43,366 nucleotides of DNA from contig JALXFE010000445.1 in the NCBI GenBank assembly GCA_027069135.1, positions 1 to 43,366 of the forward strand, written 5' to 3'. A program made the position numbers and the translations under genes. Source of the DNA: Thermoanaerobaculia bacterium (GTDB lineage Bacteria; Acidobacteriota; Thermoanaerobaculia; Multivoradales; JAHZIX01). Below are positions 38,472-43,092 of the stretch, piece by piece. The first letter of the stretch is position 1; each line of letters starts with the position of its first letter. The notes beneath the pieces are model-generated. The model did no database searches, was not told the origin of the DNA, and saw nothing but the letters and a program-made list of their open reading frames with translations.

Positions 38472-39307
38472 TTCTCCTCCAAGGAATGCTCATCGCTCGT
38501 CGCTGGCAAGAGCCGGATCTGCCATGGGTAGACCCGACGGTGTTTCCCTCCTGCGAGGGCGGCCAAGGGGTCATTCCCCTCGAGCATGATCTCTGTTGCC
38601 GGGGTGTCGTCGGGACTATGAACCACAAAGAAAAAGTCGAATTGCCCCGAAGGGCTCCGCACCAAGGCGGCCGCCGGCCCTGCTAGAAGCGCGGCACCTC
38701 GAACCACTTCCAAAGAGAGAGGTGGGGTCGGGGGAAGATAGCGCAAAAGGTCGCCATCACGTCGGAAAACGCTGAACGCAAGACCCGCGCGAGCTTCTCC
38801 CCGAGGCTCGATCCGGATCTGTACTCGGGTGTCCGGGTAGGCCTCGATCGACGAGCTCGGGGAGGGCGGTTCGACGGTTTGGCTGCGGGCCGAGGCCAAT
38901 CCTTGCGCATGGAGGTCAAAAGCGAGATCTGTGGGTAGGCCTTGCGGGCGAAGGAGGGGGATGAAAAGTAGAAGACTAAGTGCCGCTGCTGCCGCTGCGT
39001 ACCCGGGCCACCACTGCCCCCAACCGAACCGGCCAGTCGACCTAGAGGCGCCGGGACGGCTTCGTAAGATGCGTTCGCGAAGCTCCAAGGGAGTGTTCGG
39101 TAGCTTCACGCCGGCAAGCTCCGCCAAGCGTTCCCGGGTCTTTCGATCTGTCGCCAGGGTCAACTCGATTTCTTTCTCGTCTTCCGGGTCCATGGTGCCT
39201 GAGCGGTACCTCTCGAGGTCCCTATCCGTAAGCCTGGCGGATCCCTCTCCTGCGCGGGCCTGAGATGCCAGGGTCCAAAGGAGATCCTCACGTTCTTCGT
39301 GGGTCAT
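38468..39307 (-). CDS. Anti-sigma-like single-pass membrane protein
   Basis: 279 aa. The cytosolic N-terminus of ~95 residues (RLTDRDLERYRSGTMDPEDEKEIELTLATDRKTRERLAELAG) has the helical, charged look of anti-sigma domains without the zinc HxxxCxxC motif. A single helix (YAAAAAALSLLLFIPLL) is followed by an external beta-rich ~160-residue part with IRIEPRGEARAGLAFSVF. No database family is certain. Starts and stops overlap both neighbours by 4 bp, so the protein is made in step with the CHAT and subtilase proteins. Role as anti-sigma for the operon's first gene is inference from topology and position. Confidence 0.65.
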   Translation of the reverse strand: MTHEEREDLLWTLASQARAGEGSARLTDRDLERYRSGTMDPEDEKEIELTLATDRKTRERLAELAGVKLPNTPLELRERILRSRPGASRSTGRFGWGQWWPGYAAAAAALSLLLFIPLLRPQGLPTDLAFDLHAQGLASARSQTVEPPSPSSSIEAYPDTRVQIRIEPRGEARAGLAFSVFRRDGDLLRYLPPTPPLSLEVVRGAALLAGPAAALVRSPSGQFDFFFVVHSPDDTPATEIMLEGNDPLAALAGGKHRRVYPWQIRLLPATSDEHSLEEK

Positions 39308-42165
39308 TTTGTCTCTCCAACTCTGTGTCGTCGGCGGTCAGCCGCTCCCTGGTCGTGGGGGCGGGAACTTATGCCTTCACCGGTTGGGGAGTGGGGTAGT
39401 GAAAAAATTGCCCCCCTCTTCGTGGGGCGCCCCAGTAGGAGGAGAGCTCCCCAGGTGGACGCTGGAAAGTCCTGACGTGTCGCTTCGAGAGCTTCTCGAA
39501 ACGCGAGAGCTGCATTGGCATCGTCGCCCAGAGCCTGGTAGAACCTCAGGTTGAAGGCCTTGGCAAAGCGGTTGTCGAGCTCGACGCGGCTGGCGATGAC
39601 CCATAGTACGCCCCGGCGAAGCAAGAGCCCCGCAATCCCGTAATGACCACTGTCGGCGGTGACGGGCCAACGTCCGGTAAGGCAGCTGCTTAAGTTTGCG
39701 AAGCGCAGGGAGAGCGGCAGCTCTGCCAACTCGATGAAGGTGACGGGGCGGTCCGCCATCTGAAGACTGGAAAGCTCGGGATAGGCCGCATCGAAGCTGC
39801 CATGGGTGTCGATGTGAAGCCAGCTCGCGGCACCCAGCGACTGCCGAAAGGCCTCGTGAGTCGCGGCGCCTCCGTAGAGAATTTCACTTTCCGGGAAGAG
39901 CCGACGGTAGTCGTCTGCAGCGTCTGCGGAAAGAAGATCCCCCAGAGGGTCGACGACAAAGAGAGGCCGCGCATCGTCAGCGATCCTAGATCTCTTTCCG
40001 GTGCGTGCGGGGGTATGGATGGGGATGGTGAAGCTCGAAAGCCAGAGCTGCGAATCGCCTTGTTCTCCCGAGACCGGAAGCGCGCTCAACGGGATCTCCT
40101 GGAGGATTCCATGCAGGGCGAAGGTGGTGACGGGGTCGAGGGTCTGAGGCTCGGAGGGTACGAGAGCCAGCGCTACCGGAGTCAGAAGACGCCTCCATTC
40201 CGAATCACTCAAGGGAGGGACGGAGGATTGAGAGGCGGTGGTTCTGAGGAGAACCTTCCGTAGATCGGCCGCTCGAAGGGGAGTTCGTTTGACGAGGCGT
40301 GGGCCAAGCTCGGGATCGAGCTCCAGAAGCAGGAGCTCGTCGTCGACCAGGAACGCGCGGAAACGGGGCTCTTCCGAGAAGGTTTCGTCGAAGGGGACGC
40401 AAGTAGATTGCTGTCGCCACAGCTCTTGAAGCCGTTGTCGTATGGATTGTTGAAGGGGCTTGCGCTGAGCTCGCCGAATGTCCCCTGCGGGTTTCTCGAG
40501 AGCGGCGAGCTTCTTCAACAGCTCTTTGCGCTCCCGGTGGCGAAGATCCGATTCTCGGGCCCCTTCCCCAGTACACAATGCGCCCTCGGAAGTCCGGTCT
40601 CCAAGTCGATCCAGCAGGGTCAGCAGATCCCAGGCACCGCGGAGGTCCCCTCGGTCGACGGCCAGCCGTGCAGCGCTGTAGTAGTCCTCAGATCTTCTGC
40701 TGATACCCAATGCGATGGACTGCCCCAGTCGCTGGGGGGTGGCGTAGGCGTGGTGCCGCAGGGCCTGATCGAAGGCAGCGGCGGCAAGGGGAAGGTCTCC
40801 GACCCTACGAAGGGCCCGGGCGGAACAGCCCCAGGACCATGCAGCGACCAGGGGAACCTCCGCCCGGTTCGCCAACTCGACACAGATCCGGAGGGCCCGG
40901 CGAGGATTCCCAGCCTTGAGGGCCGCACTCCCTCGGACCACTTGGATCCAATCCTCGACCTCTCGGCGGCCGGCGGTGTCCGGGATCATCTCCAGCAGAT
41001 CCTTCGCCCGATCGAGCTCGGGCTCGGGATCTTCTTCGAGCATCAGCGTCAAATGAGCCAGGTTGACCAGGAGATTGGCTCGTTCCCGGGGAAACGTTTC
41101 AGCGGAGATGTCTTGGAGGGCCGCTCGGGAAATCTCCCGAGCTCTTTCGAAGTCTTCCATCGTCGCTTGAGGATCGAGGAGGGTCAACCAACCGAGGGTC
41201 ACCTGTGCACCGGCCAGGAGAAGAGGGTTGCAGGGCCAGCGGCCACAGTCGTCGATAGCCTCGCGGAGGCGGGCGACCCCTTCGCCGGCGGCATCGACAC
41301 GGACGAGAATTTCCGATTGTCTTCGCACCGATTCGATCCAGGTCGGGTCGGCGATTCTGGCTTGACGCCGTTCCGCTTGGCTGAGATAAATCCAGGCTTC
41401 GTTGAGATTCCACTCCTTTCCCAAAGCTAGGTCCGCTCTTGCCAGGGCCGCCTGACTTCCCCAAAAGGAGGAGGTGTCTCCTTCGATCCAGGGTGGGAGG
41501 TCGGCGAGGATTTGTCGGGCCCGGTCCTCGCCGTCCTCCGAGTCTCCCCGGCGAAGGAAGTAGGCGGCGATCAGGGAAGCCCGCACCCTCAGGTAAGGAA
41601 ACGCCGCCGCCGATGCCCGCTTCGCCTTGAGCAGGAGATCTTGAGCGATGGCGATAGGATCCCGGTGCTGGTCCCGTACCGTGCTGAGGATGTCTCGGCG
41701 TAACGCCTGGTAGGCGGAGTCCTCCGGATCCAGGTAGATCGCCAGCTCTGGAAGGGGACTTCGAGAACCATCGAATCGATCCCGCAGCTCACCGCCGAGT
41801 CGAGCCTCCCGGGGCTCCTTGAATCGAGCCGGGATCGGAGCATCGAAACACAGGACGTTTCCCAACCCGACGCTGGGAGGAGCGAAATCCTCGGAAAGAG
41901 CCTTGCCGTCGAGCTCCAGCCGTACATCCCACTGGCTGGTATCGATCGCTGCATCGGTGGCGATGCAGAGGCTCAAGGGCGCCTCCCGGCCCAGGTACCG
42001 AGGAAGGGGAGGACCGTCGTCGCTCAGTCGGAGCTCCTGATGATTTCGCGGCAGGACTTGGATCTGAGCCTGTAACTCCGGCGGTGGAGGGGTAGTGCAA
42101 CCGACCGCCGCAGCCATGGTTGTGGCGAGTACCGCTAGCCTTGAAGGCCAAGAAGCTTCGCGCAT
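39304..42165 (-). CDS. CHAT-domain caspase-like protein with TPR region, predicted lipoprotein
   Basis: 953 aa. The N-terminus RLAVLATTMAAAVGC is a lipoprotein signal (lipobox AVGC), unusual for a CHAT protein. Residues ~100-560 are mostly helical, TPR-like (ALARADLAL, RANLLVNLAHLTLML, LKAGNPRRALRICVELA). The C-terminal CHAT domain has the dyad His788 (WLHIDTHGSFD) and Cys828 (ANLSSCLTGRW), with WVIASRVELDNRFAKAFNLRFYQAL and STWGALLLLGRP typical of the family. It is probably a cysteine protease. The start overlaps the sigma gene by 31 bp and the stop overlaps the anti-sigma-like gene by 4 bp. Confidence 0.85.
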   Translation of the reverse strand: MREASWPSRLAVLATTMAAAVGCTTPPPPELQAQIQVLPRNHQELRLSDDGPPLPRYLGREAPLSLCIATDAAIDTSQWDVRLELDGKALSEDFAPPSVGLGNVLCFDAPIPARFKEPREARLGGELRDRFDGSRSPLPELAIYLDPEDSAYQALRRDILSTVRDQHRDPIAIAQDLLLKAKRASAAAFPYLRVRASLIAAYFLRRGDSEDGEDRARQILADLPPWIEGDTSSFWGSQAALARADLALGKEWNLNEAWIYLSQAERRQARIADPTWIESVRRQSEILVRVDAAGEGVARLREAIDDCGRWPCNPLLLAGAQVTLGWLTLLDPQATMEDFERAREISRAALQDISAETFPRERANLLVNLAHLTLMLEEDPEPELDRAKDLLEMIPDTAGRREVEDWIQVVRGSAALKAGNPRRALRICVELANRAEVPLVAAWSWGCSARALRRVGDLPLAAAAFDQALRHHAYATPQRLGQSIALGISRRSEDYYSAARLAVDRGDLRGAWDLLTLLDRLGDRTSEGALCTGEGARESDLRHRERKELLKKLAALEKPAGDIRRAQRKPLQQSIRQRLQELWRQQSTCVPFDETFSEEPRFRAFLVDDELLLLELDPELGPRLVKRTPLRAADLRKVLLRTTASQSSVPPLSDSEWRRLLTPVALALVPSEPQTLDPVTTFALHGILQEIPLSALPVSGEQGDSQLWLSSFTIPIHTPARTGKRSRIADDARPLFVVDPLGDLLSADAADDYRRLFPESEILYGGAATHEAFRQSLGAASWLHIDTHGSFDAAYPELSSLQMADRPVTFIELAELPLSLRFANLSSCLTGRWPVTADSGHYGIAGLLLRRGVLWVIASRVELDNRFAKAFNLRFYQALGDDANAALAFREALEATRQDFPASTWGALLLLGRPTKRGAIFSLPHSPTGEGISSRPHDQGAADRRRHRVGETK

Positions 42166-42725
42166 GCGGTGACCGCCTTATCGAGGATCTGTTTCAATTT
42201 GTAGGTGGCCTTACGAGACCAACCGCAGACCCGGGTCACCTCTTCCGGAGACAGGCCGTCCCGGTAGCGCAGGGTGTAGTACAGGAAAACGCGTTCTCTT
42301 CCCTCTTTGAGGCAGGTCTCCAATCGCTCTAGGGTATCTCGGTCGATGGCATGCCGTTCCGCCAACGGGTCCAAGGGGATGTCGTGGCGATCGAAGAGGG
42401 AGACCACTCTGCGATGGAAGGCGGAGCGACGCCGGTTGGAGGCGACACCACAGGCGAGGTCCCAGAGATAGGTCTCGAGGTGGGAGGCGGTCTGCTCCCG
42501 GGCCGGGACCTTGTCGAGGTATCTGCGAAGGACTCGCCCTCCATTTTGGAAAAAGAAGAGAAAGGAATCCTGAAGGAGGTCTTCTCCGTCGAGACCTCCG
42601 GGGTAGGCGTAGCGCTGTTTGAGCCGGCGGAAAAGTCTGGGAGCAAAGGTGTCGTAGAGCCAGGCCGCCGCTTCCCGATCTCCCTCCAGGATTCCCGTTA
42701 GCCGATGCCGAACCGTCGGATACAT
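42135..42725 (-). CDS. ECF-type sigma factor leading CHAT operon
   Basis: 196 aa. Region 2 (WLYDTFAPRLFRRLKQRY, DGEDLLQDSFLFFFQNGGRV) and region 4 (LEGRERVFLYYTL-type segment, LSPEEVTRVCGWSRKATYKLKQILDKAV) are recognisable, with a longer linker than usual (FDRHDIPLDPLAERHAIDRDTLERLE). A divergent ECF group. The ATG at 42725 has GAGGT about 11 bp upstream. First gene of a unit with the CHAT lipoprotein, the anti-sigma-like protein and the subtilase, all overlapping. Confidence 0.82.
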   Translation of the reverse strand: MYPTVRHRLTGILEGDREAAAWLYDTFAPRLFRRLKQRYAYPGGLDGEDLLQDSFLFFFQNGGRVLRRYLDKVPAREQTASHLETYLWDLACGVASNRRRSAFHRRVVSLFDRHDIPLDPLAERHAIDRDTLERLETCLKEGRERVFLYYTLRYRDGLSPEEVTRVCGWSRKATYKLKQILDKAVTACAKLLGLQG

Positions 42726-42855
42726 TGCGGCATCTTACCTCTGGTATGTTCGGGCTTGTATCGAAACTGCCCTGGGCCATGGGGGCGCCCGCCGAGAGCG
42801 ACTACGGCGAGGCAAGCCCCCTCGGGCCTACCTCGTCGCTCTTGGGTGTGCTCCT

Positions 42856-43092
42856 CTACCCGGTCGTGTGGCTGGAGACGACGCGTTCGACTTCCTCGTC
42901 TTCAGGAAATCGCCCGGTTTCTTTCTTCGAGTAGATCAGCTTACCGTCCAACTCGACCTCGAAGACACCGCTGCGTCCCTTGATGAGCGTGGCTTCAATG
43001 CCAAATTTTTCTCGAATCGAGTCCGCCAGACCGGCGGCTCTGGGTAGGTAATTTCAAACTACACAGTATTCAATGGAAAGGCTGTTTGCCAT
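42856..43092 (-). CDS. SelW-like (Rdx family) selenoprotein with in-frame UGA
   Basis: 78 aa if the TGA at 43054-43056 is read as selenocysteine (U13). The N-terminus is IEYCVVUNYLPRAAGLADSI: a CxxU redox motif followed by the family's NYLPRA helix. After it come GIEATLIKGRSGVFEVELDG and KLIYSKKETGRFPEDEEV, which match Rdx/SelW proteins to the expected end. Read as stop, only 12 residues would remain and the conserved downstream frame would be unexplained. AGGAG is 8 bp before the ATG, a TATAAT lies 36 bp upstream, and a SECIS-like hairpin follows the UGA. A thioredoxin-fold redox protein, probably cytosolic. It follows no operon partner. Confidence 0.85.
43019..43040 (-). promoter_or_regulatory. 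Bacterial SECIS-like hairpin after UGA
   Basis: On the minus strand GAG-CCGCC-GGTCT-GGCGG-A-CTC folds into an 8-bp stem with one bulged A and the pentaloop GGUCU. The loop begins about 22 nt after the UGA, within the 16-37 nt known for bacterial SECIS elements. The E. coli fdhF SECIS apical loop also contains GGUCU. Confidence 0.75.

Follow-up and report, generated by a model that had tools for sequence, protein, structure and literature searches.

In Escherichia coli, the SECIS element of fdhF consists of a short upper stem with a GGUCU loop about 18–21 nt after the UGA and is bound by SelB. Bacterial SelW-like selenoproteins with a CxxU motif are described in the 2005 Sargasso Sea study (PMC1088965). 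For this family, Cys homologues were reported to be very scarce or absent in organisms that contain selenocysteine (Sec), Sec was taken as its original state, and three selenoprotein families were counted in Acidobacteria (PMC1794560). SelW-like proteins form the most numerous family (PMC2398784), and a 2026 review lists PF10262 as CxxU with one Sec (PMC13188914). NCBI has models for the family. Bacterial SelW-like CxxU proteins (PF10262) have been known as a family since 2005–2006, and the gene analyzed here is an ordinary further member of it.

Reading frame and family membership

The window, i.e., the whole stretch of DNA that was analyzed (43,366 nt), is an entire contig, and the SelW-like gene therefore lies close to the contig end, with the sequence farther upstream not visible. 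On the minus strand, positions 43092 to 42856 form an open frame of 78 codons when TGA is translated as U, giving the product MANSLSIEYCVVUNYLPRAAGLADSIREKFGIEATLIKGRSGVFEVELDGKLIYSKKETGRFPEDEEVERVVSSHTTG followed by the stop codon. Exactly one codon is recoded, the TGA at 43054–43056 (minus strand), which places U13 within the motif CVVU, the CxxU of the family, whose second redox position is encoded by an in-frame UGA. The preliminary description had proposed such a complete Rdx/SelW frame, with CVVU at the CxxU/CxxC place of the family, and had expected ORF callers to split or miss it. The translation agrees on all three points, the table 11 ORF listing splitting the gene at the TGA, and the hidden gene was correctly found although standard ORF calling breaks it up.

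The product matches Pfam Rdx (PF10262) over residues 5–72 with 76.6 bits against a cut-off of 22.6 (E = 1.7e-21). The match covers both sides of the TGA and spans codon 13, indicating one domain and confirming that the flanking sequence is family-like. The two SelW-type families of NCBI are likewise matched above their curated cut-offs, NF041051 over the whole domain (97.9 bits, cut-off 88) and TIGR02174 (66.5 bits, cut-off 34.2). Solved Rdx/SelW-type structures matched by sequence are 3dex, 2fa8, 2ljk, and 2npb. In the assembly that carries the gene (G000), it is the sole Rdx gene found.

Conservation of the in-frame TGA

The taxonomic family is represented by four genomes, and each carries the gene with its TGA. 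Within the class, 104 of the 120 sampled genomes have an Rdx match, and one in-frame TGA is found in every match that extends over the motif; the three matches without a stop are fragments that start behind the motif, at profile positions 15, 39, and 42. In 80 loci from genome contigs of many phyla, every homologue read has TGA at the same codon. The search query carried Cys at the codon 13 position, so the search was not biased to TGA, and no close relative with TGC or TGT at the Sec codon was seen among the homologues read. Across the class, SelW-like selenoproteins are thus close to universal and without exception carry Sec, in line with the published view of Sec as the family's original state (PMC1794560).

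A single in-frame TGA is also what a nonsense mutation (TGC/TGT to TGA) in a CxxC Rdx gene, or a sequencing error, would yield, and the split ORF listing fits such a pseudogene, in which decay of the downstream frame would have become possible only recently. Behind the TGA, the same-genus homologue differs at 11, 10, and 26 sites in codon positions 1, 2, and 3, respectively, with dN of 0.21 and dS of 1.04 (dN/dS about 0.2). This concentration of differences at third positions argues for purifying selection on the downstream frame, and the homologues read in other phyla are also intact behind the TGA. Close homologues that stop at this codon and carry a decayed downstream frame, which had been named as grounds for abandoning the selenoprotein, were not encountered; the TGA is kept and the frame is undecayed. 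Given the same TGA in all homologues read, in the class and elsewhere, the purifying selection, and the covarying SECIS described below, the pseudogene or sequencing-error explanation was rejected as barely credible.

A second Rdx paralogue, of more divergent sequence (HCVSUGYRPRAASLAA...) and likewise bearing TGA at the Sec position, was observed at L024:1501-1668 (G002:C17:33506-33736), and second Rdx matches occur also in genomes G017, G060, G080, and G104.

The putative SECIS hairpin

A hairpin, GAGCCGCC-GGUCU-GGCGGACUC (43019–43040, minus strand), follows the TGA. Its stem comprises 8 base pairs and a single bulged A, its core reads CCGCC-GGUCU-GGCGG, and its GGUCU loop (43032–43028) lies 21 nt after the UGA. 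Like bacterial SECIS elements, it is positioned directly 3' of the UGA and has an apical loop that begins with G. Its fold energy is within the range of shuffled sequences (z = -0.71), and Rfam gave no match to SECIS or any other family. Since Rfam has no SECIS match and fold energy alone is uninformative here, the element was judged by covariation.

The stem is constrained by the codons of RAAGLAD/E, but the genetic code leaves the third positions of Ala6/Ala10 (nt 18 and 30 after the UGA) and Ala7/Leu9 (nt 21 and 27) with much freedom to vary. Compared with shuffles that ignore the relatedness of the sequences, for which the recurrence of alternative pair types in separate phyla serves as a guard, the wobble pair 18:30 is formed in 104 of 108 distinct sequences (shuffle mean 69, maximum 82) and the pair 21:27 in 106 of 108 (mean 63, maximum 78). 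C-G, G-C, G-U, U-A, and A-U pairs all occur at these sites, and the pair switches within separate groups, e.g., GCC...GCG and GCT...GCA in Bacillaceae and GCG...GCT in Betaproteobacteria. Of the 108 sequences, 94 have GGU or AGU as the first codon of the loop. The SECIS-like hairpin with a GGUCU loop, anticipated from the window alone, is present, and compensatory substitutions at synonymous wobble sites support it as a putative SECIS, its covariation being exceptional though its fold energy is not. The gene thus contributes a clear SECIS alignment of 108 distinct sequences, though no new principle.

Selenocysteine machinery in the genome

The gene was expected to imply selenocysteine machinery in the organism, and a lack of selA, selB, selC, and selD would have spoken against it. 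The full set is found in the same genome (97.45% complete, 2.4% contamination). selA is single copy (C342:83459-84814, 554.5 bits), selB is present in two full copies (contigs C342 and C273), and two tRNA-Sec genes (selC) score 69.7 bits (C342) and 66.8 bits (C185), both called tRNA-SeC with anticodon tca by ARAGORN. Two copies of selD (C342 and C320) each contain one in-frame TGA. The C342 SelD begins with MALGALFKKPTLTSLAKTCGUAAKLSP, with U at the place of the SelD catalytic Cys/Sec, and is thereby a second, independent UGA-Sec gene in this genome. selA is matched in 115 of the 120 genomes from the class; as nearly all of them possess it, comparing the presence of the machinery with that of the gene carries no signal at this level.

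Read-through alone does not name the inserted residue, and the UGA might be translated by another route, through reassignment to Trp or Gly or through near-cognate suppression, yielding a residue other than Sec. Against this stand the full selA/B/C/D set with a UCA tRNA-Sec, the SECIS with a GGUCU loop after the UGA, the location of the UGA at the catalytic CxxC/CxxU position, and the use of TGA as an ordinary stop in other genes near the sel cluster. Stop-codon reassignment was rejected on these grounds, and non-Sec read-through is considered very improbable. The in-frame TGAs of P0002, P0003, and P0005 near the C342 cluster were examined as Sec codons and rejected; they lie past the recognized domain and are followed by an arginine-rich, out-of-frame-like translation, indicating ordinary stops.

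The frame, the family match, the conserved UGA, the covarying hairpin, and the selA/B/C/D genes were observed here, and on this sequence evidence the gene is most probably (about 97%) an intact SelW-like selenoprotein gene whose UGA at codon 13 is decoded as Sec. The product would belong to the bacterial SelW-like (Rdx) family, as a small oxidoreductase with a thioredoxin fold. By analogy with the family and the established Sec pathway, SelB carrying Sec-tRNA(Sec) would be recruited by the hairpin after the UGA, with GGUCU in its loop, allowing the ribosome to insert selenocysteine at codon 13. As in other family members, the CxxU motif near the N-terminus is expected to cycle between the selenenylsulfide and the thiol/selenol, and the protein probably acts in redox reactions of thiols or peroxides.

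The duplicated sel genes of this genome, on contigs C342 (locus L105), C273 (L106), C320 (L107), and C185 (L140), form a subject of their own. The C342 cluster has the order selD-selB-selC-selA. Its SelB is only 52–54% identical to those of the related genomes G001–G003 and of C273, whereas the C273 SelB is 62–65% identical to SelB of G001–G003; in each of the other family genomes, selB and selD both occur as a single full-scoring copy. The tetranucleotide composition of C342 correlates with that of the window at 0.974, so the cluster looks resident, perhaps acquired by horizontal gain, although it may instead be contamination. With two SelB proteins (about 54% identity), a pair of tRNA-Sec, and a pair of Sec-containing SelD, the genome could be read as running two systems of Sec insertion that are partly orthogonal within a single cell, with the SelW-like gene served by only one of them, which is considered unlikely. 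In G003, a short stretch that matches selB and contains a TAG stop lies just upstream of selA (G003:C33:101549-101638, minus strand) and is perhaps what is left of a C342-type cluster that the sister species has lost. A gene for a phosphonate-binding-type (PhnD) periplasmic protein adjoins the C342 cluster (L105:509-2413, minus strand) and could be an uptake gene for selenium or another oxyanion.

Flanking signals and neighboring genes

The ribosome site proposed for the gene was located as a Shine-Dalgarno-like GAGGAG (43105–43100, minus strand), 7 nt before the ATG. The proposed -10 box stands in part: a TATAAT (43133–43128, minus strand) is found 35 nt before the ATG, and the homologues at L022 and L023 have a TATAAT at a similar distance upstream, but no -35 was found and no consensus sigma-70 promoter passed the scan upstream of the gene. 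Past the stop codon, a strong hairpin without a U tract (42795–42842, minus strand; -43.4 kcal/mol for an 84-nt stretch, z = -2.5) is a possible 3' end structure; the scan found no U-tract terminator downstream of the gene.

Elsewhere in the window, 39304–42165 (minus strand) encodes a 953-aa protein with a C-terminal CHAT protease domain. It is preceded by the gene of a 196-aa protein (42135–42725, minus strand), which has no Pfam match and, by eye, looks like an ECF sigma factor.

UxxU genes in Verrucomicrobiales

In the order to which the Verrucomicrobiales MAG locus L070 belongs, SelW-like genes were observed that contain two in-frame TGAs with two codons between them (UxxU with two Sec, in YUGMUNY or a near form), among them L070:3001-3198, L083:3001-3201, and L063:3001-3204. 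The frame is intact in L162–L164, L166–L171, and L174, from ten genomes, one of which holds a further, identical copy (L165). Sister genomes (L173, L175–L182) have C at the first motif place, i.e., CxxU. In the UxxU genes, the two UGAs are 9 nt apart and would have to share a single SECIS. The 2026 review gives the SelW-like family only as CxxU with one Sec and does not list UxxU (PMC13188914). This verrucomicrobial group and the two selB/selC/selD sets are more unusual than the SelW-like gene itself.

Comparison with known systems

The present gene shares with the bacterial SelW-like family (SELENOW-like, PF10262, CxxU) the fold family, the length, the CxxU position, the UGA at the second motif position with a SECIS directly downstream, and the near absence of Cys forms in Sec-using bacteria (PMC1794560; PMC2398784; PMC13188914). 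It differs in nothing essential: x-x is V-V here, and the host genome belongs to an Acidobacteriota-like lineage, the closest public loci being those of Acidobacteria/Thermoanaerobaculia MAGs. The NCBIfam model NF041051, SelT/SelW/SelH family (seleno)protein (SelTWH_Campy), is matched over its curated cut-off across the domain, though it is named after Campylobacter-type proteins, from a phylum other than that of the present host. With the fdhF SECIS of E. coli, the hairpin has in common a short upper stem and a GGUCU loop at a similar distance from the UGA, while its stem sequence is unlike that of fdhF and its recognition by SelB is putative.
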